Origin: Blastococcus sp. HT6-4
GTDB taxonomy: Bacteria; Actinomycetota; Actinomycetes; Mycobacteriales; Geodermatophilaceae
Direction: 5' to 3'
DNA: 64,000 nucleotides
Assembly: GCF_039679125.1 (NCBI RefSeq)
Contig: NZ_CP155551.1
Coordinates: 868,001-932,000, forward strand
Positions 4,171 to 48,831 of the stretch are shown piece after piece; the first letter of the stretch is position 1; the number at the start of each line of letters is the position of its first letter. The position numbers were made by a program, and so were the translations under genes. Under the pieces are notes generated by a model, which saw only the letters and a program-made list of their open reading frames with translations, did not search any database and was not told the DNA's origin.

Positions 4171-4176
4171 GACGCC

Positions 4177-4203: not shown

Positions 4204-5102
4204 GCCGGCGGGGCTGGGCCCTGTTCCTCACCATGTCGGTCATCTGGGGCGTGCCCTACCTGCTCATCAAGGTCGCCGTCGGCGAGGTCTCGCCGGTGTC
4301 CGTGGTCTTCGCCCGCTGCGCCATCGGCGCGGCCCTGCTGCTGCCCTGGACGATCGCCCGCGGGCAGCTGCGCCCGGCCCTGCGGCACTGGAAGCCGCTG
4401 CTGCTGTTCACGGTGCTGGAGATGACCGGGCCGTGGCTGCTGCTGTCCTACGCCGAGCAGAGCCTGTCCAGTTCGCTCACCGGCCTGCTGGTGGCCGCCG
4501 TGCCGTTCGTGGCGGCGCTGGCCGCGCGGCTCGTGGGGGAGGAGGAGCGCCTGACCCCGGTCCGGCTGCTGGGCATGGGCATCGGGGTGGTGGGCATCGC
4601 GGTGCTCCTGGGCCTGGACATCGAGGGCGCCCAGCTGCTGCCGATCCTCGCCGTCGCCCTGGTGGTCGTCGGCTACGCGACCGCCCCGCTGGTGGTCAGC
4701 CGGGCCCTGCCCGACGTGCCCGGCGTGGCGGCCAGCTCGATCGCGCTGTTCATCACCGCCGTCGTCTACGCGCCGTTCGCCGTCCCGCGGCTCGACACGG
4801 TGGCCGACGCCTCGCCGGAGGCCCTGCTCTCGCTGGCGACCCTGGGCGTGGTGTGCACCGCGCTGGCGCTGGCCCTGTTCTTCGCGCTCATCCGCGAGGT
4901 CGGCCCGCAGCGGGCGCTGGTGATCACCTTCGTCAACCCGGTGGTCGCGGTGCTCCTCGGCGTCTGGTTGCTCGGCGAGCCGTTCACCCTGGGCATCGCG
5001 CTCGGGCTGCCGCTGGTGCTGGTCGGCTGCGTCCTGGCCACCCGGCGCAGCGCGCCCCGGCCCGAGCCCAGCGTCGCCGCGGTGGACGCCGCCGCGCGCT
5101 GA
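4200..5102 (+). CDS. EamA/DMT-family transporter
   Basis: 300-aa integral membrane protein with about ten hydrophobic helices in two EamA repeats. The first runs MSVIWGVPYLLIKVAVGEVSP to the LARLVGEEE loop. The second starts near AALIREVGPQRALVITFVNP with the GVWLLGEPFTLGIALG signature. DMT proteins export amino acids, metabolites or drugs; the substrate cannot be told. A second EamA gene lies at 34323. It is convergent with the glycosyltransferase gene, 1 nt between stops. The GTG start overlaps the stop of a mini-ORF. Confidence 0.88.
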   Translation: MSRRGWALFLTMSVIWGVPYLLIKVAVGEVSPVSVVFARCAIGAALLLPWTIARGQLRPALRHWKPLLLFTVLEMTGPWLLLSYAEQSLSSSLTGLLVAAVPFVAALAARLVGEEERLTPVRLLGMGIGVVGIAVLLGLDIEGAQLLPILAVALVVVGYATAPLVVSRALPDVPGVAASSIALFITAVVYAPFAVPRLDTVADASPEALLSLATLGVVCTALALALFFALIREVGPQRALVITFVNPVVAVLLGVWLLGEPFTLGIALGLPLVLVGCVLATRRSAPRPEPSVAAVDAAAR

Positions 5103-5103
5103 C

Positions 5104-6609
5104 TCAGCCCAGGCGCCGCAGCTGCGGCCAGATCGCCGACCAGGGCTCCTGCCGGCCGGTGGCGACCCACACCGGCCGCCCCTGCTCGTCGTTGTCCAGC
5201 GCCACCCCGTTGTCGATCCGCCCGGCCAGGTCCACGCGGGCGAACCACACGCGCAGCTCCTGCTCCGGGATCCCGACGGCGATCACGGTGTCCACCGACT
5301 CCGGCGGCGGACCCCACGTCCAGTAGGAGTTGTGCCCGCTGTAGGCCGGGCCGAGCCGGGGGGCGAACCGGTCGACGGCTCCGGCCTGCCCGTAGTTGCC
5401 GGTCAGGACGGCGACCGGTTCGTCCTCCGGCAGCCGGCCGCGCACCTGCTCGATCGTCAAGGCGAACCGGGGCCAGCCGACGGTCTCGCCGGCGTCGTAG
5501 TTGACCGCGGGGACCGGGGTGCCGGCCAGGGCGTCGACGGGCACGACCGGCAGCATCAGCACCGCGTTCAGCAGGCCGCTGAGGACCAGGGCCGGGACGA
5601 GCGTCCGCCGTGCGCGCCGGCCGCCCCGGCGCGCCCAGGCCAGCGCCGGGGCGGCCCCGGCCGCGAGCAGCACCGGGTACAGGCCCGCCAGGTAGTAGGG
5701 CTTGCCGCCGGTCAGGAGGAAGACGACCGCGAGGACGACGTAGGCCACGGGGAAGCACCGCCAGGGCCACAGCGCGGGGTCCCGCCAGAGCCGCCATCCG
5801 CCCAGCACCCAGACGGGGACGAGCAGAGGGCTCACCAGCACCAACTGGTAGGGGAGGAACAGGTACCAGGGCTCGCTGGTGCCCGAGCCGCCCGCGGCGA
5901 TCGCCTCGGCCAGCTCCAGCTGTGGCCAGCCGGAGACGGCCTGCCAGACGAGGTTCGGTGTCCACAACGCCAGTGCGAGCGCCCCACCGGCCCACGGCCA
6001 CGGGCTGCGCAGCGCCGCGCGCGGCCCGGCGGCGAGCACCCCGAGGAGCACGGCCGCGAGCAGGAAGGCGGGCTGCAGCTTGTTCTGCAGGGCCAGCCCG
6101 GCCACGGCGCCGACGACCAGCCACACCCGCCCGCCGTCGCGCAGCGCCCGGACCAGCAGCCAGCCGAGCAGGGCCCAGAAGAAGAGGTCGAAGGTCGCCG
6201 TCGACAGCAGGTGGCCGACCGCCAGCAGCACGGCCGAGACCGCCATGCACCCGGCCGCCAGCAGCTGGGCGGACCGGCCGCCGCCGAACTCGCGGGCGAG
6301 CAGCCCGGTCAGCAGGACCACCGCGCCCGCGGCCAGGGCGGAGGGCAGCCGCAGCGCCACCAGCGAACCGGGGGCGAGGGCGTCCATCGCCGCGGCGACC
6401 AGCGGGGTGAACGGCGGCTGGTCGACGTACCCGAACGCCGCCTCGCGGCCGGCCCGGAGGAAGTACAGCTCGTCGCGGTGGTGGCCGTAGCGGTCGGCGA
6501 CGGCCAGGAGGAGGGCGGCGAGCGCGCCGGCGAGCGCGCCGAGCGGCGCCCAGGCCACCGGCGCGGCCGCGGTCCCGCGCGGCGACTCGAGGTCCCGGAC
6601 CACGTTCAC
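5104..6609 (-). CDS. GT39 / PMT-like membrane glycosyltransferase
   Basis: 501-aa polytopic GT-C enzyme of the PMT_2/ArnT-like kind. These take a polyprenyl-phosphate sugar and glycosylate a protein, lipid or wall polymer on the outer membrane face. After the first helix comes the family signature DRYGHHRDELYFLRAG, with the acidic catalytic pair, then GYVDQPPFTPLVAA. About ten further helices and a soluble C-terminal domain (from about residue 360) follow. The acceptor is unknown. The GTG start lies at the very end of a 20-bp inverted repeat shared with tag. Confidence 0.86.
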   Translation of the reverse strand: MNVVRDLESPRGTAAAPVAWAPLGALAGALAALLLAVADRYGHHRDELYFLRAGREAAFGYVDQPPFTPLVAAAMDALAPGSLVALRLPSALAAGAVVLLTGLLAREFGGGRSAQLLAAGCMAVSAVLLAVGHLLSTATFDLFFWALLGWLLVRALRDGGRVWLVVGAVAGLALQNKLQPAFLLAAVLLGVLAAGPRAALRSPWPWAGGALALALWTPNLVWQAVSGWPQLELAEAIAAGGSGTSEPWYLFLPYQLVLVSPLLVPVWVLGGWRLWRDPALWPWRCFPVAYVVLAVVFLLTGGKPYYLAGLYPVLLAAGAAPALAWARRGGRRARRTLVPALVLSGLLNAVLMLPVVPVDALAGTPVPAVNYDAGETVGWPRFALTIEQVRGRLPEDEPVAVLTGNYGQAGAVDRFAPRLGPAYSGHNSYWTWGPPPESVDTVIAVGIPEQELRVWFARVDLAGRIDNGVALDNDEQGRPVWVATGRQEPWSAIWPQLRRLG

Positions 6610-6661
6610 CCGCGGACCGTAGCGCCGGGGCGTCAGGGGGCGGCGCTACGGTCCGCGGGTG
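6607..6661. promoter_or_regulatory. perfect inverted repeat forming mirrored leaderless promoters
   Basis: Two 20-bp arms (6607-6626 and 6642-6661) match perfectly around a 15-bp spacer. Each arm contains TACGGT, a -10-like box (6616-6621 minus, 6647-6652 plus), then CCGCGG and a terminal GTG. Those GTGs are the start codons of the GT39 gene (6609) and tag (6659). Both genes therefore have identical promoter-to-codon sequence. It may also be a regulator site or form a cruciform. Confidence 0.75.
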
Positions 6662-7210
6662 GATGACATCGGTCGCTGCGGCTGGGCGACGAGCAGCCCC
6701 GAGTACGTCGCCTACCACGACGAGGAGTGGGGCACGCCGCTGCGCGGCGACGACGCCCTCTTCGAACGACTGAGCCTGGAGGCGTTCCAGTCGGGGCTGT
6801 CCTGGATCACCATCCTCCGCAAGCGCCCCGCGTTCCGATCGGCCTTCGCGGGCTTCCGCATCGACGAGGTCGCCCGGTTCGGCGACGCCGACGAGGAGCG
6901 CCTGATGGCCGACGCGGGCATCGTGCGCAACCGGGTGAAGATCCGTGCGGCGATCGGCAACGCCCGCGCGGCGCAGCAGGTGCCGGAGGGGCTGTCCGCG
7001 CTGCTCTGGTCCTTCGCGCCGACGGCGGCCCGGCCGCGCCCGGCGACGCTCGCCGACGTCCCGGCGACGAGCGCGGAGTCGGTCGCGATGGCCCGGGAGC
7101 TGAAGAGCCGCGGCTTCGTCTTCGTCGGCCCGACGACCGCCTACGCGCTCATGCAGGCCACCGGCATGGTCGACGACCACGTGGCCGAGTGCTTCCGGGC
7201 ATCACCCTGA
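6659..7210 (+). CDS. tag: DNA-3-methyladenine glycosylase I
   Basis: 183-aa base-excision repair enzyme that removes 3-methyladenine from alkylated DNA. It matches the Tag family across its length: RCGWATSSPEYVAYHDEEWG at the start, then LFERLSLEAFQSGLSW with the catalytic-pocket residues, and FVGPTTAYALMQATGMVDDH. Zinc ligands are Cys7, His20, His174 and Cys178, with the spacing of the E. coli enzyme. The start is a GTG 6 nt after TACGGT, without a ribosome binding site. It shares an inverted repeat with the divergent glycosyltransferase gene. Confidence 0.95.
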   Translation: MDDIGRCGWATSSPEYVAYHDEEWGTPLRGDDALFERLSLEAFQSGLSWITILRKRPAFRSAFAGFRIDEVARFGDADEERLMADAGIVRNRVKIRAAIGNARAAQQVPEGLSALLWSFAPTAARPRPATLADVPATSAESVAMARELKSRGFVFVGPTTAYALMQATGMVDDHVAECFRASP

Positions 7211-7221
7211 CGGGCCTGCTG

Positions 7222-7250
7222 TTGGACGACGGCGGCTCATACGGGATCAT
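7222..7250 (+). promoter_or_regulatory. candidate promoter of DUF3117 gene
   Basis: TTGGAC (7222-7227) and GATCAT (7245-7250) are 17 bp apart, a plausible -35/-10 pair. The predicted leader is about 70 nt and carries an AAGGAGG ribosome binding site at 7313-7319. Confidence 0.4.
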
Positions 7251-7324
7251 TGCCACGGAGCTCACAGCATCGGACACCACGCGCCCGTCCACGGGCAGAC
7301 GCGTGGCTGGCGAAGGAGGCACGC

Positions 7325-7492
7325 ATGGCGGCCATGAAGCCGCGCACGGGTGAAGGTCCCCTCGAGGTCACCAAGGAAGGGCGCGGCCTGGTCATGCGGG
7401 TACCGCTGGAAGGCGGCGGTCGCCTGGTCGTCGAGCTGTCGCCGGACGAGGCGGCCGCGCTGTCGGAGGCGCTGAAGGGCGCGACCAGCTGA
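7325..7492 (+). CDS. DUF3117 domain protein
   Basis: 55-aa protein matching the short, strongly conserved actinobacterial DUF3117 family. MAAMKPRTGEGPLEVTKEGR is the family's N-terminus, followed by GLVMRVPLEGGGRLVVELSP and a closing helix. Function unknown. The ATG is set by AAGGAGG 5 nt upstream. It follows tag, as in M. tuberculosis (Rv1210-Rv1211, from memory). Its TGA overlaps a CTG that may start pepA. Confidence 0.92.
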   Translation: MAAMKPRTGEGPLEVTKEGRGLVMRVPLEGGGRLVVELSPDEAAALSEALKGATS

Positions 7493-7632
7493 CTTCCTCC
7501 GCGAGCCTGTCCCCGGGCAGCCCCGCACAGGACGACACGGCCCCGGCCGTCGGCACCTCGCCGGCGACCGGGGCCGCGCCGTTCCCGCGGGTCGAGGTCC
7601 TCGCCGACGTCCCGGCCCTGGGACCCGACGAC

Positions 7633-9117
7633 GTGCTGGCCGTACCGGTCGGTGCCGGCAGCGCCCTGCCGCCGTGGCTGACCGGTGCGGCGGCCCCGGT
7701 GGTCAGCCCCGAGCTGCTGACCGGTGCCCTCGCCGACACCGGCAACTCCGGCCGCGCCGGGGGGCTGACCAACGTGCCGATCGCCGGGCGGCGGCCCCGC
7801 AGCGTCGTCGCGATCGGCGTCGGCGACGGCGTCCTCCCCGACGTGCGCCGCTACGCGGCCACCGCCGTCCGCCGGGCGCAGACGCTGGCCGCGCACGGCG
7901 CGCGGCGCCTGGTCCTGCCGCTGGACACCGCGACGGCGCCGGCCGGCGCGGCCGAGGTGCGCGCGGCGGTCGAGGCGGCGCTGCTGGGCGGGTACCGGTT
8001 CCGCGACACCTCGAAGCCGCACCCGGTGCGGCTGGGGACGGTGACCCTGGTCCTCGCCGGCGCCGACGACGCCGCGGTGGCGGAGGCCGCCCGTGCCGGC
8101 CAGGTGGCCGCCGAGGCCGTCGGCTGGGCGCGGGACCTGGTCAACACGCCGCCCAGCACCAAGAACCCCGCCTGGCTGGCCGACCGGGCCATCCACCGGC
8201 TGGCCGGGCTCCCGCACGTCTCGGTCACCGTCCTCGGCCCCGAGGAGCTGAGGGCCGGCGGGTTCGGCGGCGTGCTGGCCGTCGGGAGCGGATCGGCCAC
8301 CCCGCCGTGCGTCATCGTCGCCGGCTACCGGCACCCCGCGGCCGGCCCGGCCCACCCCGTGCTGGTGGGGAAGGGCATCACCTTCGACACCGGCGGGCTG
8401 TCGATCAAGCGCGGCGCCGGCATGCGGGACATGAAGACCGACATGGCCGGTGGCGCGGCCATCCTCGCCGCGGTGGACGCCGCCGCGCGGCTGGAGCTGC
8501 CGGTGGCCGTCACGGCGGTCGTCGCCGTCGCGGAGAACGCGGTCTCGGGGTCGTCGTACCGGCCGGCCGACGTCGTCCGGCACGTCGGCGGGCGCACGAC
8601 CGAGGTGGGCAACACCGACGCCGAGGGGCGGCTGGTGCTCGCCGACGCCCTGGCCCACGCCCGGCTCGTCCTGGGCGCCACGGCGCTGGTCGACGTCGCG
8701 ACGCTCACCGGCGCCATGAAGGTGGCCCTGGGCGCGCGGACGGCCGGGCTGTACGCGACCAGCGACGGGCTGGCCGACGCGCTGTCCGCCGCCGGCACGC
8801 AGGCGGGGGAGCCCTCGTGGCGGATGCCGCTGGCCGAGGAGTACGCGGAGCTGCTCGACAGCGCCGTCGCCGATGCGACGAACGCGCCGGGCGGCCCCGG
8901 CGGGACCACCGCGGCGCTGTTCCTGCGGCCGTTCGCCGGGGAGCTGCCGTGGGCGCACCTGGACATCGCCGGCCCGGCGCTAGCCCGGTCCGACCACGAG
9001 GAGACGGTCAAGGGCGGCACCGGGTTCGGCGCGCGGACGCTCCTGCGCTGGCTGGAGGCCGGTGCCCCGGTGGATGCCGCCCCGGTGGATGCTGTCGCGG
9101 TGGTGAACGACCGATGA
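7633..9117 (+). CDS. pepA: leucyl aminopeptidase (M17)
   Basis: Cytosolic dizinc aminopeptidase of the M17 family. The catalytic domain is intact: VLVGKGITFDTGGLSIK (lysine and aspartate ligands), DMKTDMAGGAA, and the family signature NTDAEGRLVLADAL with its aspartate and glutamate. The first ATG/GTG/TTG in frame is the GTG at 7633 (494 aa). This cuts into the N-terminal domain, because the frame upstream (PFPRVEVLADVPALGPDD) looks like protein. The frame is open back to a CTG at 7489 that overlaps the DUF3117 stop as CTGA. I suspect CTG is the real start, giving 542 aa. Confidence 0.9.
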   Translation: MLAVPVGAGSALPPWLTGAAAPVVSPELLTGALADTGNSGRAGGLTNVPIAGRRPRSVVAIGVGDGVLPDVRRYAATAVRRAQTLAAHGARRLVLPLDTATAPAGAAEVRAAVEAALLGGYRFRDTSKPHPVRLGTVTLVLAGADDAAVAEAARAGQVAAEAVGWARDLVNTPPSTKNPAWLADRAIHRLAGLPHVSVTVLGPEELRAGGFGGVLAVGSGSATPPCVIVAGYRHPAAGPAHPVLVGKGITFDTGGLSIKRGAGMRDMKTDMAGGAAILAAVDAAARLELPVAVTAVVAVAENAVSGSSYRPADVVRHVGGRTTEVGNTDAEGRLVLADALAHARLVLGATALVDVATLTGAMKVALGARTAGLYATSDGLADALSAAGTQAGEPSWRMPLAEEYAELLDSAVADATNAPGGPGGTTAALFLRPFAGELPWAHLDIAGPALARSDHEETVKGGTGFGARTLLRWLEAGAPVDAAPVDAVAVVNDR

Positions 9118-10580
9118 CCGACGAATCCGCAGGTGTCGTCTTCCCGGCCGGCCCCGACGGCCGGCGCAGCACCGCCGCCCTGGGCCGGGCGGTCGTCGCC
9201 GACGCGCTGCGCCCGGTGGACGCCACCGGTGCGCTGGCCGCCGAGCACGAGACCAACTGGCGGGCGGGCTACCTGACCCACTTCCGCCGGCTCGTGGAGG
9301 CCGGGCTGCCGTCGGCAGGGGCCGCGCACGCCATCGCCGACGCCGGGCTCGACTCGCTGCACCGGCGCATGCGGGTCGCCGGACCGGACGGGGAGGCGGG
9401 GCTGGACACGCTGGCCGGCGCGCCCGCCGGCCGGTCGCTGCGCACGGTCGAGGTGACCGGGCGCGCCGAGCCGGAACGGGAGTTCTCGCTGCCCTTCCAC
9501 GGCTACCGGCTCCGCGGCGACGCGCTGCTGCGCCGCCTCGACCGCTGGACCGACGCCGGGGTGGTGGAACCCTCGTGCGGCGAGGCGGTCCGCGCCGTCG
9601 TGGCCCACCCGGAGTGGCTGGCGCTGCCGGACACCACCGTCGTCGTGCTCGGGGCCGGGGCGGAGATGGGGCCGCTCACCGCGCTGCTCCGCTGGGGGGT
9701 CCGCGTGGCCGGCGTCGACCTGCCGCGTGCCCCGCTGTGGGAGCGCGTGCTGCAGACCGCCCGCAGCGGGGCCGGCACCCTGCTGCTGCCGGTGTCCGGC
9801 GAGGGCCCCGACGCCGACCCGGCCCGCGCGGGCGCCGACCTGATCGCCGAGGTCCCGGCGGTCGCCGACTGGGTCACCGGTCTCCCCGGGCGGCCGGTAC
9901 TGGGCAACTACGTCTACGCCGACGGCGCCACGAACGTCCGGGTCTCGACGGCGGTCGACGCGCTCACCGTGCGCCTCGGGGCGGCCCGGCCCGATCTCGC
10001 GCTGGCGTTCCTCGCCACACCGACCGACGTCTTCGCCGTCCCCGGTGACGCGGTGGCGCAGTCGGTGCGGGCCTACGGCGCCCGGACGGGGACGGCCAAG
10101 CTGCTCGGCCGGCCGCTGCGCACGCTGTCCGGGGGCCGGCTGCTGCGGCGCGCGTACGTGCCCGGCGCCGACCCCGGCATCGCCGACAGCCTGGTCGCCC
10201 AGCAGGGCCCCAACTACGCGCTGGCCAAGCGCTTGCAGCGGTGGCGGGCCACGGTGGCCCGCGCAGCCGGGCACACGGTCTCGATGAACGTGGCCCCGCC
10301 GACCCGCACCCGCTCGGTGGTCAAGAACCGGGCCCTGGCCGCCGCCTACGCCGGCGCCCACCGGTTCGGCGTGGAGGTGTTCGAGCCCGCGACGGCGAAC
10401 GTGCTGATGGCCGCCCTGCTGGTGCACGACCTGCACACCGGCGGCGGGCCCGCGCACGAGCACCCCTGGCAGGACGAGGCGTACGAGGCGGCGCACGGCG
10501 GCCTGTGGCGGACCGCCTACGCCCCGCGCAGCGCGCTCGGGCTGGCCGCGCTGCTCGGCTACGGGGCCGCCCGGGCCTGA
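9114..10580 (+). CDS. uncharacterised 488-aa protein, Rossmann-like segment
   Basis: I do not recognise this family. The ATG overlaps the pepA stop (ATGA), so the two are co-translated. Residues near 175-195 read VVVLGAGAEMGPLTALLRWG followed by VRVAGVDLPRA, resembling a nucleotide-binding strand-turn-helix. YADGATNVRVS and QQGPNYALAKRLQRWR stand out as likely conserved. The C-terminal part (SMNVAPPTRTRSVVKNRAL, then HDLHTGGGPAHEHPWQ) is rich in histidine and polar residues. No signal peptide or membrane helix is seen. Coupling to an aminopeptidase suggests cytosolic metabolism, but no more can be said. Confidence 0.75.
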   Translation: MTDESAGVVFPAGPDGRRSTAALGRAVVADALRPVDATGALAAEHETNWRAGYLTHFRRLVEAGLPSAGAAHAIADAGLDSLHRRMRVAGPDGEAGLDTLAGAPAGRSLRTVEVTGRAEPEREFSLPFHGYRLRGDALLRRLDRWTDAGVVEPSCGEAVRAVVAHPEWLALPDTTVVVLGAGAEMGPLTALLRWGVRVAGVDLPRAPLWERVLQTARSGAGTLLLPVSGEGPDADPARAGADLIAEVPAVADWVTGLPGRPVLGNYVYADGATNVRVSTAVDALTVRLGAARPDLALAFLATPTDVFAVPGDAVAQSVRAYGARTGTAKLLGRPLRTLSGGRLLRRAYVPGADPGIADSLVAQQGPNYALAKRLQRWRATVARAAGHTVSMNVAPPTRTRSVVKNRALAAAYAGAHRFGVEVFEPATANVLMAALLVHDLHTGGGPAHEHPWQDEAYEAAHGGLWRTAYAPRSALGLAALLGYGAARA

Positions 10581-40350: not shown

Positions 40351-40662
40351 ATGGTGCACAGACTGGTGGTCAGCTACGGGACGCCCGAGGACCCTGCGGC
40401 GTTCGACTCCTACTACCGGGAGACCCACACCCCGCTGGCGCTGAAGCAGCCCGGGCTGGTGCGGCTCACCTTCGGGCACGGCAAGGCGATGGACCCGGCG
40501 CAGCCGGCGCCCTACCTCGTCGCCGAGCTGGACTTCGACTCCGAGGCGGCCATGGGGCAGGCGCTGGCCTCGCCCGAGGGCCGGGCCGCGGGCGCGGACC
40601 TGGCCAACTTCGCCACCGGCGGGGTCTCCTTCGTGCACTTCGAGGTCCATACGGCGAGCTGA
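40351..40662 (+). CDS. EthD-family protein
   Basis: 103-aa alpha-beta barrel protein of the EthD type. It has VHRLVVSYGTPEDPAAFDSY and YYRETHTPLALKQPGLV, with the family histidine, then a closing FVHFEVHT strand. EthD proteins assist ether or polyketide metabolism elsewhere; the role here is unknown. The ATG has GGGAGG 7 nt upstream. Confidence 0.85.
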   Translation: MVHRLVVSYGTPEDPAAFDSYYRETHTPLALKQPGLVRLTFGHGKAMDPAQPAPYLVAELDFDSEAAMGQALASPEGRAAGADLANFATGGVSFVHFEVHTAS

Positions 40663-40705: not shown

Positions 40706-40715
40706 TCGTCCACAG
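40706..40715 (+). promoter_or_regulatory. TTGTCCACAG-like motif, copy 1
   Basis: TCGTCCACAG is one base off the motif found at 45151, 48822 and 58716. It is followed 32 nt later by the TAGCGT box of the FtsK/FHA ATPase gene. Confidence 0.4.
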
Positions 40716-40747
40716 CCGGCCGGTGGACCGGAACTGACGCGTCCGTC

Positions 40748-40753
40748 TAGCGT
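40748..40753 (+). promoter_or_regulatory. -10 element of FtsK/FHA ATPase gene
   Basis: TAGCGT ends 8 nt before the GTG at 40762. The same hexamer precedes the ESX-like gene (45188-45193). Confidence 0.45.
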
Positions 40754-40761
40754 TCCGGCCC

Positions 40762-43700
40762 GTGCGCGTCCAGGTGAGCGTCGGGCAGCCCGGTGGTGGG
40801 CTGCTCGACGTCGCCGTCGACGTGGACGACGACCTGCCCGTCCGCCGGCTCGCCGCGGAGCTCGCCCGGGTCGCCGGCCGGCCGGCCGAGGGGCTGTGGC
40901 TCGCCGGAGAGCGGCTCGACGAGGACCGGCCGGTGGGGGAGAGCCCCCTGGTCGACGGCGCGGTCGTGCACCTCTCCGAGCCGGCCGCCGGCGCGGTGCC
41001 GGCCGGGCCGCCTGCCCGCGGCTGGCAGCTCCGGGTGATCGGCGGGCCCGGCAGCGGGCTGGTCACCCGCCTGCCGATGGGCGACCACGGGCTCGGCCGG
41101 AGCGGCGCGCTCGGGTGGGACCGGTCGATGTCGCGGCGGCACGCGCTGCTGCGGGTCGGCGCGGACGGGGCGACCCTGCGCGATCTCGGGTCGGCCAACG
41201 GCACGTTCGCCGACGGCGAGCCGGTGCCCGAGGACGAGGACGTGGCGGTCGCCCCCGGGCAGGTGATCCGGCTGGGCGACACCCAGCTGGCGATCGCACC
41301 CGCCGCCGTCGCCGACGCCGCGGTCGAGCCGGCCGGCCCCGGCACCCGGGCGTTCGTGCGGGCCCCGCGGCTGCTGCCCGCGCGGCGTGAGGTCCGCATC
41401 GAGCTGCCACGGGAACCGGCCACCCGGGAGCCCCGCCGGGTCCCCCTGGTGATGATCCTGGCGCCGCTGGTCGTCGGCGTCGTCCTGGCCGTGGTCCTGC
41501 GGTCGCCGCTGTACCTGGTGTTCGCCGTCGCCGGCCCGGTCATGATGCTCGGCAACGCCGTCGCCGACCGCCGGCAGTCCGCGCGCGAGGACCGCCGGGC
41601 CCGCGAGGAGCACGCACGGGAGCTCGCCCGCAGGCTGCAGCGGATCGACGCCGCGGTGGCCGAGGAGACCGTCCGCCGCCGGGCCGCCCACCCCGACCCG
41701 GCCGCGGCACTGCTCACCGCGCTGCTGCCCGGTCGCCGGCTGTGGGAGCGCCGCCGGACCGACCCCGACGCGCTGGACCTGCGGCTCGGCACCGCCGACC
41801 TGCCCGCCGAGGTGGTGGTCACCGGCCGCCCGGGGGCGGACGAGGCGTCGCCGCGGCGCGCCGTGCGGGCGGTGCCGGTGGTCGTGCCGCTCCGCGGGAC
41901 CGGGGTCGTGGGGCTGGCCGGCCCGGCCGGGCCGCTGGCCGGTCTGCTGCGCTGGGTGGTGCTGCAGCTGGCGATCCACCACCCGCCGCGCGACCTCGGG
42001 CTCACCGTCCTCACGCCGCGGGCCCGGGCCGACTGGAACTGGGTGCGCTGGCTGCCCCACGTCCGGCCGGCCGACGGGGACGGCCCGGTGGCGTCGGTCG
42101 GCAACGACCCGGAGACCGTCACCGCCCGCGTCGCCGAGCTGACCGCCCTGGTGCGGGCCCGCCGGGCGGCCACCGCCACCGGTGGCCGGGTGCCGCCGGA
42201 GGCCTTCCCCGCGCACGTGCTGGTCGTGCACGGGTTCCGGCCGCTGCGGGCGACCCCGGGGCTGGCCCAGCTGCTGCAGGACGGGCCGGCGGTCGGCGTC
42301 TACGCGGTCTGCGCCGACGAGGAGGAGCGGTTCCTGCCCGAGACGGCGACGGCGACGGCGGTGTTCCACCCGGCGGAGGAGACGACGCTCGCCGTGCACC
42401 GCAGCGGCGCCGACCCGGTGGGGGCCGTGCTCGCCGAGCCGGTGGCGGCAGAGCTCGCGGAGGCCGCGGCCCGGGCGCTGGCTCCCCTGCGCGACGTCAG
42501 CCTGGAGGAGGACGAGGCGGTCCTGCCCGACAGCGTCCGGCTGCTCGACGTGCTGGGCCTCGAGCCCCCCACGGCCGATGGCGTCCGCGCGCGCTGGCAG
42601 CTGGAGGGGCGGACGACGCGGCTGGTCGCCGGCGCGGGGCTGCAGGGGCCGTTCGTGCTCGACCTGCGCACCGACGGCCCGCACGCCCTGATCGCCGGCA
42701 CCACGGGCGCCGGCAAGTCGGAGCTCCTGCAGACGATGATCGCGTCGCTGGCCGTCGCCAACCGCCCCGACGCGCTGAACCTGGTGCTGGTCGACTACAA
42801 GGGCGGCAGCGCGTTCAAGGACTGCGTGGACCTGCCGCACACCGTCGGCATGGTGACCGACCTCGACGCGCACCTGGTGGAGCGCGCGCTCACCTCGCTC
42901 GCCGCCGAGCTCACCCACCGGGAGCACCGGCTGGCCGGGGCGGGGGTGAAGGACATCGACGACTACGTCGACCTGCAGGCGCGCGAGCCGGGCCGCCCGC
43001 CGCTGCCGCGGCTGCTGATCGTCATCGACGAGTTCGCCTCGCTGGCCCGGGAGCTGCCCGACTTCGTGACCGGCCTGGTCGGCATCGCGCAGCGCGGCCG
43101 GTCGCTGGGCATCCACCTGGTCCTGGCGACCCAGCGGCCCAGCGGCGTCGTGTCCCCGGAGATCCGGGCGAACACCAACCTGCGCATCTCGCTGCGGGTC
43201 ACCGACGGGGCCGACAGCAGTGACGTGCTGGACTCACCGGACGCCGCGCGGATCCCGAAGTCGGCGCCCGGTCGCGGGTTCGCCCGGCTCGGGCACGGCG
43301 CCCTCGTGCCGTTCCAGGCCGGCCGGATCGGTGGCCGGCGCCCCGGCCAGGGCACGGGGGCAGCGGCACCGTTCGTCGTGCCGCTCGGCTGGCACCAGGT
43401 GGGGTACGCCGCGCCCCGGCGTCCGACGCCGGACGGGGTGCGATCCGACGTCGAGATCACCGACCTCTCGGTGCTGGTGGCGGCCGTGCGCGCTGCCGCG
43501 GTCGCCGAGCAGGTGCCGGCGCAGCGCAGCCCCTGGCTCCCGGCCCTGCCCGCGCGGGTGCTGGTCGTCGACCTGGACGTCCCTCCGCCGGCTGCCGCCG
43601 CGGTGCCCCGGCTGCCCTTCGGCCTGCAGGACCTCCCGGCGTCGCAGGAGCGCCGGGTGGCCGCCTTCGACCCGGCCGCGGACGGGCACCTGCTGGTGAT

Positions 43701-45141
43701 CGGCTCGCCGAGGAGTGGGCGGTCGCAGCTGCTGCGCACCCTGGCCGGCGCCGTCGGCGCGCGCTGCTCGACCGGCGACGTCCACCTCTACGCCCTCGAC
43801 TGCGGCAACGGCGCGCTGCTGCCGTTGGCCGACCTGCCGCACTGCGGGGCGGTGGTGACCCGCACCGAGACCGAGCGCGCCGCCCGGTTGCTCGACCGGC
43901 TCGCGCGGGAGCTGGAGCGCCGGCAGCAGATCCTCGCCGAGGGCGGCTTCGCCGACGTCGCCGAGCAGCGCCGCCGGGCACCGGCTGACGACCGGCTGCC
44001 GCACGTCCTGCTGCTGCTGGACCGGTGGGAGGGGTTCGCCCCGACCCTCGGCGAGGTGGACGGCGGTCGGCTCACCGACGTCCTCCTGGCGATCGTCCGC
44101 GAGGGCGCCTCGGCCGGGATGTCGCTGGTGATGACCGGTGACCGGTCCCTCGGCACGGCCCGGTTGGCCTCGCTCACCGACAACCGGCTGGTCATGCGGC
44201 TGGCCGACCGCGGCGACTACCCGCTCGTCGGCGTCCCGGGCAGGCAGGTGCCCGGCGCCATGCCACCGGGACGTGCGCTGACCGCCGACGGCGCGATCGA
44301 GACCCAGGTCGCGCTGCTGGCCGACGACGAGTCGGGGCAGGGGCAGGCGGCGGCGCTCGCCGAGATCGCGAAGGCCGCGCACGTGCGGGATGCGCTGCTG
44401 CCGCGGTCGGCACGGCCCTTCCGCGTCGACGCGCTGCCCGCACGGATCGGCTTCGATGCGGCGTGGCAGCTGCGGCCCCCGGACGCCGGCAGCGGATTCG
44501 CGCTGGTCGGGGTGGGCGGTGACGAGCTGACCGCGGTCGGCCCCGACCTGGCGGACGGCGCCCCGGCGTTCGTGGTGGCCGGACCATCCCGCTCGGGGAA
44601 GAGCACCGTGCTGGTGGGGATGGCGGAGTCGTTGCTGCGCCAGGGGGCCCGCGTCGTCGTCTGCACGCCGAAGGCGTCGCCGCTGCGGGCGCTGGCCGGG
44701 CGGCCGGGCGTGCTCGAGGTCGTCACCGATCCCGCCACCCCGGCGCAGCGATGGCGGGAGCTGCTCGCCACCGGGCCCGGCCGGCCGCTGGCCCTGCTGC
44801 TCGACGACGGCGACCTGCTGCGCGACTGCCCGGCGGCGGAGGTCTTCCGCGACGTCGTGAAGGGGTACGCCGGCCCGGGACGGGGCCTGGTGCTGGCCGG
44901 CACCGCCGACGGCATCTGCACCGGCCTGTCCGGCTGGCAGGTCGACGCGAGGAGGGCGCGACAGGGCGTGCTGCTCTCCCCGCAGAGCAGCACCGACGGC
45001 GACCTGATCGGGGTGCGGCTCCCGCGCGGCGCCGTCGGCGGGCCGGTGCAGCCGGGACGGGGGCTGCTGCACATCGGGAACGGGTCGCCGTGCACCGTCG
45101 CCGTCCCCCTCCCGCCGCCGGCCGGCGCGGCCCGGAGCTGA
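40762..45141 (+). CDS. EssC/EccC-like type VII secretion ATPase with ubiquitin-like and FHA domains
   Basis: 1459 aa. Domains in order: a ubiquitin-like segment (about 1-75; LWLAGERLDEDRPVGESPLV), an FHA domain (about 90-180; SMSRRHALLRV and SANGTF), two membrane helices (about 228-272), and three FtsK/SpoIIIE-type modules. Module 1 has Walker A GTTGAGKS (646-653) and Walker B LLIVIDEF (about 752-759). Module 2 is degenerate (GSPRSGRSQ at 981; LLDRWEG). Module 3 has GPSRSGKST at 1274 and LLLDDGDLL. This is the motor of ESX/WXG100 secretion. FHA plus ubiquitin-like heads are closer to Bacillota EssC/YukD than to mycobacterial EccC. Confidence 0.9.
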   Translation: MRVQVSVGQPGGGLLDVAVDVDDDLPVRRLAAELARVAGRPAEGLWLAGERLDEDRPVGESPLVDGAVVHLSEPAAGAVPAGPPARGWQLRVIGGPGSGLVTRLPMGDHGLGRSGALGWDRSMSRRHALLRVGADGATLRDLGSANGTFADGEPVPEDEDVAVAPGQVIRLGDTQLAIAPAAVADAAVEPAGPGTRAFVRAPRLLPARREVRIELPREPATREPRRVPLVMILAPLVVGVVLAVVLRSPLYLVFAVAGPVMMLGNAVADRRQSAREDRRAREEHARELARRLQRIDAAVAEETVRRRAAHPDPAAALLTALLPGRRLWERRRTDPDALDLRLGTADLPAEVVVTGRPGADEASPRRAVRAVPVVVPLRGTGVVGLAGPAGPLAGLLRWVVLQLAIHHPPRDLGLTVLTPRARADWNWVRWLPHVRPADGDGPVASVGNDPETVTARVAELTALVRARRAATATGGRVPPEAFPAHVLVVHGFRPLRATPGLAQLLQDGPAVGVYAVCADEEERFLPETATATAVFHPAEETTLAVHRSGADPVGAVLAEPVAAELAEAAARALAPLRDVSLEEDEAVLPDSVRLLDVLGLEPPTADGVRARWQLEGRTTRLVAGAGLQGPFVLDLRTDGPHALIAGTTGAGKSELLQTMIASLAVANRPDALNLVLVDYKGGSAFKDCVDLPHTVGMVTDLDAHLVERALTSLAAELTHREHRLAGAGVKDIDDYVDLQAREPGRPPLPRLLIVIDEFASLARELPDFVTGLVGIAQRGRSLGIHLVLATQRPSGVVSPEIRANTNLRISLRVTDGADSSDVLDSPDAARIPKSAPGRGFARLGHGALVPFQAGRIGGRRPGQGTGAAAPFVVPLGWHQVGYAAPRRPTPDGVRSDVEITDLSVLVAAVRAAAVAEQVPAQRSPWLPALPARVLVVDLDVPPPAAAAVPRLPFGLQDLPASQERRVAAFDPAADGHLLVIGSPRSGRSQLLRTLAGAVGARCSTGDVHLYALDCGNGALLPLADLPHCGAVVTRTETERAARLLDRLARELERRQQILAEGGFADVAEQRRRAPADDRLPHVLLLLDRWEGFAPTLGEVDGGRLTDVLLAIVREGASAGMSLVMTGDRSLGTARLASLTDNRLVMRLADRGDYPLVGVPGRQVPGAMPPGRALTADGAIETQVALLADDESGQGQAAALAEIAKAAHVRDALLPRSARPFRVDALPARIGFDAAWQLRPPDAGSGFALVGVGGDELTAVGPDLADGAPAFVVAGPSRSGKSTVLVGMAESLLRQGARVVVCTPKASPLRALAGRPGVLEVVTDPATPAQRWRELLATGPGRPLALLLDDGDLLRDCPAAEVFRDVVKGYAGPGRGLVLAGTADGICTGLSGWQVDARRARQGVLLSPQSSTDGDLIGVRLPRGAVGGPVQPGRGLLHIGNGSPCTVAVPLPPPAGAARS

Positions 45142-45150
45142 GCCGCCCGC

Positions 45151-45160
45151 CTGTGGACAA
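45151..45160 (-). promoter_or_regulatory. TTGTCCACAG motif, copy 2
   Basis: CTGTGGACAA on the plus strand is an exact TTGTCCACAG on the minus strand. It lies 27 nt before the TAGCGT box of the ESX-like gene. Confidence 0.45.
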
Positions 45161-45187
45161 CCGCCGATCGGGACGCCCCGGTGTCGT

Positions 45188-45193
45188 TAGCGT
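45188..45193 (+). promoter_or_regulatory. -10 element of ESX-like gene
   Basis: TAGCGT lies 34 nt before the GTG at 45228. Here a leader with GGAGG (45218-45222) intervenes, unlike the leaderless starts elsewhere in the window. Confidence 0.45.
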
Positions 45194-45227
45194 GTGCGGA
45201 CCCTTCCCCTCCGACGCGGAGGTTCGC

Positions 45228-45524
45228 GTGAGCGACCTGTACATCGACGGCGCGATGCTGGCTCGCGTCCGGTCCGACCTCGGCACCATCGGCGATCTCC
45301 TGGCCGGCCCGGCGCGGGAGATGCGGGCCGTGACCGGCTCGGCCATGGGCGCCCCGGCGCTCGCCCGGCGGATGGACGAGTTCGGCGACGAGTGGTCCTA
45401 CGGCATCGAGCGCCTCGGTGGCTTCGCGGCGGGCGCGGCGGACGCGCTGGCGCGGATCGACGAGGCGTTCCGCGCGGCCGACACCGCGCTCGGTGACGCG
45501 CTGCGCCGGGCCGGCGCGCGGTGA
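45228..45524 (+). CDS. small ESX/WXG100-like protein
   Basis: 98-aa helical protein with the length and helix-turn-helix pattern of WXG100 substrates. The central turn reads FGDEWSYGIERLGGF, with a tryptophan and W-x-x-G instead of W-x-G. The flanking helices (LARVRSDLGTIGDLLAG; ADALARIDEAFRAADTALGD) are amphipathic. It is likely a substrate or partner of the upstream ATPase. The GTG has GGAGG 5 nt upstream. It overlaps the next gene by 4 nt. Confidence 0.75.
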   Translation: MSDLYIDGAMLARVRSDLGTIGDLLAGPAREMRAVTGSAMGAPALARRMDEFGDEWSYGIERLGGFAAGAADALARIDEAFRAADTALGDALRRAGAR

Positions 45525-46761
45525 GCGGCGGCTTCCCGTCGCTGGGGTTCGACCCGGCTCCGGGTGACGTGGTGGTCGCCCGGCAGGTCGCCGGCGGGGT
45601 CACCCACGCCGCGCGGGCGCTCGAGGAGATCTCGGCCGTGCTCGCCGGCACCGCGGACGGGGAGTGGCGCGGGAACGCGGCGATCGCCTTCCGGACCCTG
45701 CTGGCCGAGGACTTCCGCCCGAAGGTCGTCACCGCGGCCCGGTCGTTCGACGAGGCGAGCCGCGCGCTGCACGACTGGCTGGACACGATGCAGGCCGGCC
45801 AGGCGCGGGCGAGGTCGCTGGAGACGCAGCACGCGGCGGCGGTCCGGCGGGCACAGGAGGCGCGGGCCGCCTGCGCGGCCGTCCCTGCGGCCGCGCCACC
45901 GTCCGGGGTGCCGCGTGCGCCGGAGGAGGCCGCGGTGGAGGACGAGCGCTCGCGGGCGCGGGCGGCGGCCGGGCGCGCGGCGGACTCCGCGGACGCCGAG
46001 GTCGACGGCATCGTGCAGGAGGCGCGGCGACTTCTCGCCGAGTACGAGGAGCTGGGCCGGCAGGCCGCCGGCCGGCTCCGGGGGGCCATGGACCTCGCGC
46101 CGGACCAGCCCGGCTTCTGGCAGGGCCTCGTCGTGTCGATCGGCGCCGTGCTGGAGGAGATCGGCAAGTTCGCCGACGGCTTCGACGAGCTCGTCGTGGC
46201 CCAGCTCGCCCGGTTCGCGCCGGTCCTCGACCACATCGGGGACGTCGCGTCGTTCCTCGGGACCGTCTGCGGCGTGGTGGCCTGGTTCCCCGGCTTCCAG
46301 TCGCTGGCCGTCGCGGCGGTCGCGCTGAACGGCGTCGCGCTCGTGATGCACTACGGGGCGGCCGTCGGTCAGACCGGCAGCTTCGCCGAGGCGCTGACCG
46401 ACGAGACCGTGCTCATGGACGCGGCGGGTGTCGCGCTCGGTGCCGGGGCGCGGGCGGCGGGCGGGCGCCTCGTCGGCGCGGTCCGCTCCGGCAGCTCGGC
46501 GCGGCGGCCCCCGGGGGCAGCGCGCTGCGCACCGTGCCGCAGGTCTTCGGACGTCCCAAGGAGCTGCCCTTCAACTACTTCCAGCTCGCCCGCAGCGCCG
46601 GCTACCGGATGGGTGAGGGGGAGCTGCTCTGGCGGACCGCGACCTTCCACATCGGGGCCGGCAACGTCGCACACCTCGTCGTCAATGCGCCGGGCACCCG
46701 GTCGACCGCCACCCGCCTGTTCGACCCGCCGGGTCCGCGCCGGCCGAGCGGGGTCCGGTGA
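45521..46761 (+). pseudogene. WXG-headed multidomain T7SS substrate-like protein, frameshifted
   Basis: The GTG at 45521 starts a protein whose first 100 residues look like WXG100 (TADGEWRGNAAIAFRTLLAE). An Ala/Arg-rich coiled coil follows (about 100-190), then a hydrophobic region (about 225-305; FLGTVCGVVAWFPGFQSLAV). The frame breaks in a five-G run (46513-46517). One added G restores GSALRTVPQVFGRPKELPFN and a tail ending at 46761, 413 aa in all. The architecture resembles LXG or long WXG effectors. No toxin domain is recognised in the tail. Confidence 0.65.
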
Positions 46762-47396
46762 GCGCCCCACCTGCCGGGGTCGTGGACCTCTGCCTCCCGG
46801 CGGACTGGTGCGACCTGGTCCTCGGCGACGACGCCGGCGCCCGGGCGCGGTTCGCGGACCTGGCGCAGCAGGTCTGGCCCGGCGGTCCGGAGCACCTGCG
46901 GACCGCGGTGGCCGACGCGCTGGTCGCCTGGCGCGCGCGCCTGGTGGCCGCGGGGGCGGTCAGCCACGGGGTGGTCGGCGCGGTCGCCCCCGGCGGCGAG
47001 CCGGCGGTGTGGCACGTGATCAGCAGCGTCGTCGAGCTGCCGCGCTCGCCGGAGGTCGACCTCACGGCCGTCCTGGCCGAACTGCTGCCGGTGCGCATCC
47101 ACGACGTGCTGCACGTGGAGCGCTTCGCGACCGACCTCGGGCTGGGCGTCGGCTTCGTGGCTGCGCCGGAGGCGCTGCCCCCACCGGGCCCGGGCCCGGC
47201 GGCCGGCGGCCGGACGGTCCGCACCGGCCTGGCCGGCGCGCTCGCCTGCGTGCCCGGCGCCGGACACGGCCTGCTGGTCACCGGCGCCTGTCTGGCCGCC
47301 GGTCAGGTGGCCGAGCTGGCCGCGCTGGTCGCCACGATCGCCGGTCGGTCGCGGTTGCGGCCGGCACCCACCCGTCAGGACGGAGGGCCACGATGA
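46758..47396 (+). CDS. unknown T7SS-associated protein
   Basis: 212 aa, unrecognised. It starts GTG in GTGA overlap with the WXG-headed gene and overlaps the next gene as ATGA, so it is translated with its neighbours. No membrane helix or signal is seen. The sequence is alpha/beta-like, with DWCDLVLGDDAGARARFADL and IHDVLHVERFATDLGLGVGF. Location between a substrate-like protein and a membrane protein suggests a chaperone or immunity role. That is inference only. Confidence 0.6.
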   Translation: MSAPPAGVVDLCLPADWCDLVLGDDAGARARFADLAQQVWPGGPEHLRTAVADALVAWRARLVAAGAVSHGVVGAVAPGGEPAVWHVISSVVELPRSPEVDLTAVLAELLPVRIHDVLHVERFATDLGLGVGFVAAPEALPPPGPGPAAGGRTVRTGLAGALACVPGAGHGLLVTGACLAAGQVAELAALVATIAGRSRLRPAPTRQDGGPR

Positions 47397-48330
47397 CAGC
47401 TGCGCCGACGCCCCTGGGCCCCGCCGACCGGCCGTGGCGCACCAGGGCCGAACTGCTGGCGGCCCGCGCGCCGGCCGTGCCGCAGCTCGACAAGCAGTTG
47501 CTGGCCCCATGGCGCTATCTGGGGACGGTGGCGTTGGTCGCCGTCACCGTCGTCACCGGCATGTTCGCCGCGCTCGGCTTCGCCGAGGGGGAGCGGCTGA
47601 GCACCGCCCTCGCGGTGTTCTTCGCGGGCATCAGCGTGGCCGCGGCGGTCCCGTCGGTCCTGCTCGCAGCCCGCACCCGGGCGGTGCACGACCGGCTCCG
47701 GGACTGGGAAGAGGTCGAGCAGCGGTTCCGGGCGCTACCGCGGGCCCGATCGCGCCGGAGCACCGGACACCGTACGACGCCCGGGATGACGCCGACTTCG
47801 AGCTGGTGGCACGCGACGCACTGCTCGACGCCTACATCCATGCGCATGGCTCCCGCGGCATGCTCCGGCTCTGCTCGCTGCCCGGGGTCGTGTTCGGACC
47901 GGTGCTGATGGCGACGCCGCTCGGCATGCCGGAGTCCGCCGTGGGGTGGGGCGCGGTGATCGTCGGCGGCTACCTGTTCGTGGCCGGCGTGCTGGGCGTG
48001 GGGACCTACTTCCGGCGGGTGTTCCGAGGTGAACGGAGCTACCGCAGGCTCGAGCGTGAGATCTTCGAGCTCCGTCGGCAACGCTACGGCGAGTCGGAAG
48101 CCCTGGCTGTGGACCGCGCCCTGCTGTGGGGGCGTGCGCGCGAGGCGCTGACCGTCGGACTGGTGGCCGTGCCCGTGGCCGGCTGGCAGGTGGCCGCAGG
48201 GCGGGAGGGAGCGATTCCCGTGCTCGTCCTCGTCGTCGCGGTCATGGCGGCGATCGCGCTCGCACCACTGGTGCCCCGCCGCCGGAGGAACGCCGGTGCC
48301 CAGGAGCCGACCGGTACCTCGGCGCCCTGA
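47393..48330 (+). pseudogene. four-helix membrane protein of T7SS locus, frameshifted
   Basis: ATG at 47393 overlaps the preceding stop. The first part has two membrane helices (YLGTVALVAVTVVTGMFAAL; TALAVFFAGISVAAAVPSVL) and a coiled coil. The frame breaks near 47742-47747 (CGGGCCC). Restoring one G joins PIAPEHRTPYDARDDADFEL and a second half with four more hydrophobic segments, 312 aa in all. The family is unrecognised. As a polytopic protein beside the ATPase it could be a channel component. Confidence 0.6.
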
Positions 48331-48371
48331 GACCGGGCCGCAGGCCGACCCCGACGACGCCGGCCGACCCG

Positions 48372-48414
48372 ACGACGACGGCCGCCTCGCATCAGGCGAG
48401 GCGGCCGCCGTCGT
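48372..48414. terminator. bidirectional hairpin at end of T7SS operon
   Basis: GACGACGG/CCGCCTCGC pairs with GCGAGGCGG/CCGTCGTC-like sequence around ATCAG, with a small bulge. It lies between the convergent stops at 48330 and 48428. Confidence 0.65.
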
Positions 48415-48427
48415 GCTGTGCCGGTGA

Positions 48428-48724
48428 TCAGCGACCGAGTGCACCGGCCAGCTGGGTGTCGGCGTCCCGGAAGGTCGCGGCCGCCTGGTTGAGGTACTGC
48501 GCCATGCCGTCGAGCCCGGCGACCATGTTCCGCGCACCGGTGGTGAACTCGTCGTAGGACGCCTGGAAGGTGCGGCTGGAGCTGTCCGTGACGTAGCCCT
48601 CGGCGACGAGCTGGTCGACCAGGCCCTTGAGCTGGCCCAGCAGGCCGTCGATCTCGGCGCGCCCGTTGACGAGACGCCCGGCGGCGTCCTCCATCTGCTG
48701 GTAGGTGACGTTGACGTTGGCCAT
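48428..48724 (-). CDS. WXG100-family type VII secretion target
   Basis: 98-aa WXG100-type protein: MANVNVTYQQMEDAAGRLVN, a turn at EGYVTDSSSRTFQASYDEFT, and a second helix ending in FRDADTQLAGALG. The tryptophan of the W-x-G turn is replaced (GYVTDSS), a variant common in actinobacterial members. It should be exported as a helical hairpin dimer by the adjacent ATPase. It faces the T7SS operon. The ATG is 98 nt from a TTGTCCACAG motif. Confidence 0.88.
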   Translation of the reverse strand: MANVNVTYQQMEDAAGRLVNGRAEIDGLLGQLKGLVDQLVAEGYVTDSSSRTFQASYDEFTTGARNMVAGLDGMAQYLNQAAATFRDADTQLAGALGR

Positions 48725-48821
48725 GGGGGGTCCAATCGGGAGGGCCCGGTCGCACGCGTCGCACCGGGGATGAGCGGGGTGTCGCGGGAACGAAACCACG
48801 CCGGCGGACACGCCGAGCCGG

Positions 48822-48831
48822 TTGTCCACAG
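48822..48831 (+). promoter_or_regulatory. TTGTCCACAG motif, copy 3
   Basis: An exact TTGTCCACAG stands in the 259-bp gap between the WXG100 gene (minus) and the DUF1028 gene (plus). Nothing else is evident in that gap. Confidence 0.4.

Follow-up and report, generated by a model that had tools for sequence, protein, structure and literature searches.

Which secretion system does the ATPase encoded at 40762..45141 of the window (the whole 64,000-nucleotide stretch of DNA from the soil bacterium Blastococcus sp. HT6-4 that was analysed) belong to, and how much of that system is left around it? A preliminary description had seen here a compact, poorly described type VII system with an EssC-like motor and a YukD-like head. 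The first of these proposals is supported by our analysis, and the affinities of the motor and its head appear to lie elsewhere. The locus comprises the following features.

40762..45141, plus strand: motor with ubiquitin-like (Ubl) head, FHA domain, two membrane helices and ATPase domains, 1459 aa, EccC/EssC superfamily, apparent third lineage (open reading frame, Pfam and NCBIfam profiles, trees, dN/dS)
40762..40986, plus strand: Ubl head of the motor, aa 1-75 (hhalign of lineage profile, AlphaFold model)
41023..41301, plus strand: FHA domain of the motor, aa 88-180 (PF00498 E=2.1e-10, alignment, model)
41446..41571, plus strand: two predicted membrane helices, about aa 229-270 (model)
45228..45524, plus strand: 98-aa WXG100-superfamily small partner, cargo cassette (iterated profile, inside a longer open reading frame)
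45521..46761, plus strand: long cargo protein with a WXG/T7SS_signal head (PF21725 E=5e-7, 30.2 bits against a cut-off of 27)
46758..47396, plus strand: 212-aa protein (of a family adjoining this kind of motor)
47393..48330, plus strand: polytopic protein, cargo cassette (frame comparison with relatives, hydrophobic segments in relative L015)
48379..48407, strand not assigned: hairpin between convergent genes (by eye in intergenic sequences of the window and relatives L007, L009, L010, L014 and L016)
48428..48724, minus strand: 98-aa WXG100 protein, always paired with the motor in Blastococcus (PF06013 E=8.6e-19; 18 of 18 other Blastococcus loci)

As the preliminary description had stated, one open reading frame joins an FHA domain (PF00498 E=2e-10) to an FtsK_SpoIIIE motor (E=4e-59). 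The protein matches the NCBIfam models TIGR03928 (E=2e-152) and TIGR03924 (E=3e-128) but does not reach the curated threshold of the EssC, EccCa or EccCb model; the EssC model gives 509 bits against a required 778.4, and the EccCa and EccCb models give 429 and 314 bits. By this profile test the protein is an EccC/EssC-type FtsK motor, as expected of type VII secretion in the wide sense. Its top PDB match is 4nh0, an EccC of Thermomonospora. The AlphaFold model (mean pLDDT 73.9, pTM 0.37) predicts two strands, a helix and more strands, then a beta sandwich, and then the two membrane helices that had been proposed earlier. The phosphothreonine motif of the FHA domain, GRS..SRRH..GSANGT, is intact in the alignment. 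The three P-loop modules of the preliminary description hold for domains 1 (GTTGAGKS) and 3 (GPSRSGKS), which are canonical in the window, and not for domain 2, which is degenerate (GSPRSGRS); across the lineage only the domain 1 P-loop is conserved (38 of 39 rows, against 10 of 36 for domain 2 and 9 of 37 for domain 3). The dN/dS of the motor gene is 0.24-0.28 between the window and four relatives, and a promoter scan of the locus region found none.

The Ubl head is weakly matched when searched as a single sequence (PF00240 E=0.065; YukD, PF08817, E=0.32; both under cut-off). A profile of 21 lineage heads, compared by hhalign, matches a profile of eight EccD heads at 94% (E=1.6e-7) and a YukD profile, built from three sequences only, at 49% (E=1.7e-4). 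The known homologues YukD and EccD, used as a positive control, reach 80% (E=1.4e-5), and the negative controls give 10.4% (FHA), 0.4% (WXG) and 0.2% (212-aa family). A ubiquitin-like head is therefore upheld by the profile comparison, and it appears closer to the EccD-head profile than to the YukD profile with its three sequences, contrary to the earlier likening to YukD. The head is absent in L173, which has no N-terminus in its contig, and in the called frame of L119.

To place the motor, the preliminary description had proposed a phylogeny against EccC and EssC. Our main tree holds 62 motors, aligned over residues 372-862 of the window motor (linker plus ATPase domain 1), with EccC, EssC and T7SSd-like motors as comparators; the published T7SSc and T7SSe-j are not among the rows. 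The window motor sits in a single clade of 40 rows (support 100/99), apart from these comparators. EccC (T7SSa, eight rows) forms its own clade (100/100), and EssC (T7SSb, four rows) groups with ten motors from other actinobacterial genomes, three of them T7SSd-like (100/99). The split is repeated in a 31-row tree (96/92) and in a 59-row quick tree (SH-aLRT 96), from which ten rows were left out and 13 added to give the 62. Among the comparators on these trees, the motor thus seems to belong to a third type VII lineage, apart from EccC and from EssC and T7SSd-like motors, and descent from EssC is supported neither by the tree nor by the sub-threshold EssC score. Rows were recruited by one of three queries (the window motor, a fragment of YukB from B. 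subtilis, a profile of the lineage N-terminus), so the breadth of the lineage is not an unbiased sample, and some deep rows are lone genomes on long branches (L114). Of the 296 actinobacterial genomes sampled, 33, including that of the window, contain a lineage motor or a strong head match in a long frame (counted at E<=1e-17 with an open frame of >=1000 aa), and records named as Micromonospora, Streptomyces, Rothia and Curtobacterium supply further members.

Small ESX/WXG100 proteins had been reported beside the motor, and both are recovered: the 98-aa superfamily member on the plus strand, which has no Pfam or NCBIfam match, and the minus-strand protein (PF06013 E=9e-19), with GYV at the WXG position. 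The latter is the only WXG100 protein over cut-off in the whole genome, its gene has a dN/dS of 0.07-0.25 (window against four relatives), and a convergent WXG100 gene lies beside the motor in all 18 other Blastococcus loci. These loci were retrieved via their ATPase, so the presence of the ATPase in every one of them is by construction. A WXG100 protein is thus coupled to the motor, as in type VII systems in the wide sense. Across the lineage, profiles find small WXG-like open reading frames within 2.5 kb of 22 of the 40 motors (32 of 752 near frames, against 10 of 1305 farther ones); they find none within that distance at the other 18, some having one farther off (L051) and some little flanking sequence (L037). 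The hairpin at 48379..48407 is also present in relatives with an empty slot between the two genes, and a consensus terminator scan did not list it.

What lies between the motor and the WXG100 gene varies. Among the 18 other Blastococcus loci the slot is empty in ten, holds cargo in six and holds a remnant in two (L008 and L025). Seven of the 18 have, upstream, a triple of kinase, lipoprotein and secreted protein, as called by a home-made gene caller, and cargo or a remnant occurs in all seven of these against one of the 11 without the triple (window omitted), an association that amounts to only three independent changes. The window locus has cargo without the triple, and no kinase within 6 kb of its motor. 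A coupling of FHA domain and kinase across the lineage was considered and is not supported: a kinase lies near the motor in nine of 19 loci with an intact FHA domain and in five of 15 with a degenerate one (one of the five being L173, whose N-terminus is missing), and independent pairs show no agreement. The core in the genus Blastococcus is ATPase plus WXG100, with the long, 98-aa, 212-aa and polytopic proteins as optional cargo.

The WXG-headed long gene and the polytopic gene of the preliminary description are present, and each shifts frame in the window (near 46490-46510 and near 47735-47745), so that two of the four cargo genes are broken; the long gene is unbroken in L015, which is Blastococcus sp. 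TBT05-19, and in L019, which is strain VKM Ac-2987, and the polytopic gene, with four hydrophobic segments in L015, is unbroken in L015 and L025. We reject programmed frameshifting because the relatives' frames are continuous. The 212-aa protein, a candidate chaperone or adaptor (model pLDDT 78.7), belongs to a family that accompanies motors of this kind and is missing from the EccC and EssC loci fetched. The window protein has no Pfam match and its best PDB profile hit is an ATP synthase epsilon chain at E=0.79, and assignment to a known family was dropped; 18 family members give only weak, scattered Pfam matches (best E=0.01). No function was found for the cargo C-terminus. T7SS_signal-headed cargo occurs at the same loci in relatives, and in Micromonospora musae the cargo is an Rhs protein (RHS repeats E=3e-79; T7SS_signal E=2.5e-5 and Scabin-like E=0.0024, both under cut-offs). 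An RHS-annotated gene near the Rothia motor has no Pfam match at E 0.1.

Could the locus nonetheless be part of a system already known? A canonical ESX (T7SSa) system with its core genes elsewhere in the genome would be in keeping with the EccCa and EccCb scores and with an EccC as best PDB match, but we hold it to be scarcely credible. EccC forms a separate clade, and searches to E 10 found neither EccB nor EccD in the genome, which rejects a hidden ESX core for these two proteins and agrees with the earlier view of a compact locus lacking them. EccB is likewise found in none of the 18 other Blastococcus genomes, while the same search recovered it in 11 control genomes that also bear the motor (10 of 10 Micromonospora and the one Actinomadura); the EccD search has no positive control, because none of 14 control genomes exceeded the cut-off. 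Nor was EssB/YukC found in any of 20 genomes, the window's included, with B. subtilis as a positive control, and besides the motor there is one FtsK in the window genome. The other candidate is T7SSd, described in actinobacteria (Olsenella, Bifidobacterium) with a WXG100 protein, an FHA motor, a kinase, TsdH and TsdI. The intact phosphothreonine motif, the actinobacterial host and a kinase in seven of 18 relatives all fit. The T7SSd-like motors L189-L191, however, group with EssC outside the window clade; they were assigned by gene content, each having as neighbours a WXG100 gene and a protein of 1650-1737 aa that is hydrophobic in segments at its N- and C-terminal ends, and are imperfect comparators in that profiles find no kinase in them. 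A profile of seven heads that includes theirs reaches only 0.1-1.7% against Ubl profiles, and gene calls place no TsdI-like protein of about 1650 aa next to the motor in the window or its 18 relatives (a 1726-aa frame lies farther out in L013). We therefore regard T7SSd as improbable.

Two further readings concern whether the locus still works. The two frame changes might be sequencing or assembly errors in an intact cassette, a possibility that deserves attention given that both lie within very GC-rich stretches of a single-contig genome, though we lean against it: conserved genes around them match relatives' lengths, and the remnants in L008 and L025 indicate that decay of the cargo slot happens in the genus. 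Alternatively, the ATPase and WXG100 protein might never have been secretory, or be so no longer, and serve another task, for instance as a membrane ATPase gated by WXG100; the cargo would then be a relic on its way to being lost. The window locus shows neither a channel nor an envelope protein, so the pair might no longer secrete; ten of the 18 relatives hold the pair alone, and the cargo frames in the window are broken. Against this, relatives carry T7SS_signal-headed cargo, and WXG100 proteins with EccC/EssC-type motors are common to described type VII systems, T7SSi being listed without a clear WXG100 core gene in the sections of PMC11217815 drawn on here. We think a non-secretory role rather unlikely.

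The explanation that we favour, and consider probable, is that Actinomycetota have a third lineage of type VII secretion, of which this locus is a member that has been reduced and has in part decayed. It draws on features read from sequence: the domain order, the separate lineage, the constant ATPase-WXG100 pair, the optional cargo slot, the frame changes, and searches that found no EccB, EccD or EssB. A single membrane-anchored ATPase would serve as the motor, with Ubl and FHA domains on its own N-terminus; we infer that it oligomerises at the membrane and is activated when the WXG100 protein binds its ATPase domains. Cargo with a WXG/T7SS_signal helical head may be pumped out after being presented jointly with the 98- and 212-aa proteins, perhaps for an antibacterial purpose. 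The FHA domain may read phosphothreonine as part of a phospho-switch, and in fuller members the receptor-like Ser/Thr kinase, lipoprotein and secreted coiled protein could form an envelope part or its control. A bolder version, which we judge unlikely, is that Actinomycetota have a phylum-wide type VII lineage with Ubl fused to the motor, and that the Blastococcus form, pared down to a single motor with a single WXG100 protein, still exports without a dedicated channel protein, as the smallest such system known.

These loci bear on two wider questions. Since the Ubl sits on the motor polypeptide, the open question of how EsaB/YukD acts on the motor becomes testable by deletion of a single domain, and the reduced Blastococcus loci ask what is the fewest parts that type VII export requires. 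In the portions of Garrett et al. 2024 (PMC11217815) used here, the T7SSa to T7SSj classification lists no subtypes for Actinomycetota other than T7SSa and T7SSd, and reports T7SSc and T7SSe-j in Bacillota only.

Among known systems, T7SSa/ESX shares the EccC-type motor and WXG100 partner, but carries its Ubl on EccD rather than on the motor; the window system has an FHA domain on a motor outside the EccC clade, and no EccB or EccD was found in the genome. T7SSb/Ess is alike in its FHA-headed motor, YukD-like domain and effectors with small helical partners, but has FHA heads and a separate YukD, where the window motor has one FHA domain and a fused Ubl, stands outside the EssC clade and under its cut-off, and lacks a detectable EssB. 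T7SSd, as described in PMC11217815, shares with the window lineage the Actinomycetota host, a single WXG100 core gene, an FHA domain with the phosphothreonine motif and, in fuller members, a kinase. The same paper reports no Ubl for T7SSd, whereas the window motor carries one, is in another clade than the T7SSd-like comparators, and has neither a TsdI-like protein beside it nor a TsdD-type kinase nearby. Finally, the portion of PMC3482391 that we cite describes mobile loci that combine WXG proteins with a three-domain YueA-like ATPase. By description, these solo WXG domains with one three-domain FtsK-type ATPase resemble the window system; they differ in occurring in Proteobacteria, Planctomycetes and others, and in that the middle of the three ATPase domains is reported as the sole active one.

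The window locus, in the 4.30-Mb single-contig genome of Blastococcus sp. HT6-4, has its closest relatives in other Blastococcus and is arranged as follows.

40762-45141, plus strand: ATPase (the motor), first gene of the locus
3' of the ATPase, plus strand, in this order: 98-aa protein, WXG-headed long gene, 212-aa gene, polytopic gene
48428-48724, minus strand: WXG100 gene, convergent to the plus-strand genes

The motor matches the FHA and FtsK/SpoIIIE families and stays under the curated cut-offs for EssC (509 of 778 bits), EccCa (429 of 509) and EccCb (314 of 347). Phylogenies covering the linker and the first ATPase domain (residues 372-862 of the window protein), built from 31, 59 (quick) and 62 (careful) motors, all place EccC, EssC and the window lineage apart, and in the 62-motor tree the 40 lineage rows form one clade (support 100/99; 100% of 200 bootstrap trees). 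Across the lineage, the P-loop is kept only in ATPase domain 1 (38 of 39). The WXG100 partner carries GYV at the WXG site (residues 43-45; window 48590-48598, minus strand). A small gene at 40351-40662, which we take to be EthD-like, lies upstream of the motor in the window and in two relatives (L017, L019), and several of the remaining Blastococcus loci have its counterpart on the downstream side of the WXG100 gene.

The preliminary description had likened the head domains of the motor to Bacillota EssC plus YukD. Single-sequence matches of the window head are weak (ubiquitin E=0.065, YukD E=0.32), and a profile of 21 lineage heads scores 94% (E=1.6e-7) against EccD heads and 49% (E=1.7e-4) against a three-sequence YukD profile. 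Among the controls, the YukD-EccD pair gave 80%, FHA 10.4%, WXG 0.4% and the 212-aa family 0.2%. In an AlphaFold model of residues 1-300 (mean pLDDT 73.9, pTM 0.37), the head is beta-beta-alpha-beta-like, residues 88-180 fold as a beta sandwich, and one helix spans 229-246 and another starts at 250. A pattern match finds an intact FHA motif in 22 of the 40 lineage rows, with L173, whose N-terminus is absent from its contig, scored as not intact. Of the 34 rows that have sufficient flank or show a kinase, a kinase lies near the motor in 9 of 19 with an intact motif versus 5 of 15 others. Because kinase proximity does not follow motif state, an FHA phospho-switch is only a proposal.

Some match to the lineage head profile occurs in 260 of 296 sampled Actinomycetota genomes. 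The weaker matches listed are mostly confined to positions 80-190, and so we take them for plain FHA proteins. A match at E<=1e-17 in a frame of at least 1000 aa, counted by hand from the listing, is present in 33 of the 296, the window's own genome included. Regions were fetched from 31 genomes (30 of the 33 plus one weaker match, with G053 and G223 left out), and all 31 motors fall on the lineage side of the 59-motor tree.

Genome-wide searches of the window genome returned no EccB and no EccD, the latter search having no positive control over the cut-off, and EssB was found in none of 20 genomes searched, this one included. EccB was likewise not found in any of the 18 other Blastococcus genomes or in the Nocardioides genome. 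It is present in all ten Micromonospora genomes and the one Actinomadura genome carrying the motor, which therefore coexists there with ESX.

The relatives search gave 32 loci (18 Blastococcus, 10 Micromonospora and one each from Actinomadura, Nocardioides, Acidimicrobiia and Enterobacter, the last dropped for its short match of 205 residues). Since loci were fetched by ATPase, its presence is true by construction. The convergent WXG100 gene is found in 18/18 other Blastococcus loci, and the slot between it and the motor varies: empty in ten (L007, L009, L010, L013, L014, L016, L017, L018, L031, L034), a window-type cassette in three (L015, L019, L033), a different cassette with a T7SS_signal protein in three (L011, L012, L020) and a cargo remnant in two (L008, L025). 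A hairpin between the convergent genes is readable in five empty loci, and in the window on the WXG100 side.

Directly upstream of the ATPase, seven of the 18 (L008, L011, L012, L015, L020, L025, L033) carry a triple: a coiled protein of ~915 aa, some copies of which start with a signal-like stretch; a ~428-aa protein resembling a lipoprotein; and a Ser/Thr kinase (~672 aa) that has a single membrane helix. Cargo or its remnant accompanies the triple in 7/7 loci versus 1/11 without it (Fisher p=0.00025, relatedness ignored); counting the window, 2/12 loci without the triple have cargo (p=0.0007, relatedness again ignored). The triple has undergone at least three changes over the tree, and of 3 independent pairs an average of 2.9 are concordant for cargo, a number too small for a test.

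Purifying selection acts on the motor (dN/dS 0.24-0.28) and the WXG100 protein (0.07-0.25), and evolution is faster in the 98-aa (0.37-0.39) and 212-aa (0.60-0.65) proteins. Because the 212-aa family adjoins lineage motors together with differing cargo proteins, and was not found at the fetched EccC, EssC or T7SSd-like loci, we read it as a candidate chaperone or adaptor rather than an immunity protein. The window long gene and polytopic gene each contain one frame departure, and relatives read through uninterrupted (long gene in L015 and L019, polytopic gene in L015 and L025). Decay is our first choice for these changes, with error ranked behind it.

Several other loci deserve mention. On Rothia terrae plasmid p2, matches to all three triple profiles lie beside the motor. 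Two plasmid records of this species, NZ_CP062961.1 (L046) and NZ_CP062960.1, match the Bacillus subtilis YukB fragment equally (38.1%), and thus more than one plasmid may carry the system. In three genomes of the same class (L114-L116, family f5), a long-branched lineage motor has two adjacent strong kinase genes beside it on the opposite strand. The deep lineage locus L117 (15260-19989) encodes a kinase and then a 1049-aa secreted-looking protein with repeats resembling Ig/FN3 domains by eye, a possible analogue of TsdI.

We found no description of the lineage among the open-licence papers listed, judged by titles and the abstract openings shown. PMC3482391 mentions, in other phyla, WXG loci of the solo type whose ATPase has three domains. 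PMC11217815 names T7SSc-j, of which it places only T7SSd in Actinomycetota, and 'Streptomyces' is absent from the main text. Nine of the ten actinobacterial motors outside the lineage are, by our inference, from Coriobacteriia. The tenth (L170; G217:C39:1-16000, 1-10502), from another Actinomycetota genome, lacks an N-terminal FHA domain and reaches 1275 bits with the EssC model. Several WXG-like ORFs lie near it, and inspection by eye adds a phosphatase-like ORF and, where the contig ends, a kinase-like fragment. This locus is reminiscent of T7SSc, given as Bacillota only in PMC11217815. At three comparator loci (L189-L191), a motor whose head is FHA-like and a WXG100 gene lie next to a 1650-1737-aa protein with hydrophobic segments at its N and C termini, and in these three components the loci fit T7SSd as PMC11217815 describes it; the kinase profile found no kinase there. 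Their motors branch with EssC, and a seven-head profile including them has no match to ubiquitin-like profiles (0.1-1.7%), in agreement with the account of T7SSd in PMC11217815 as a system without a ubiquitin-like protein.
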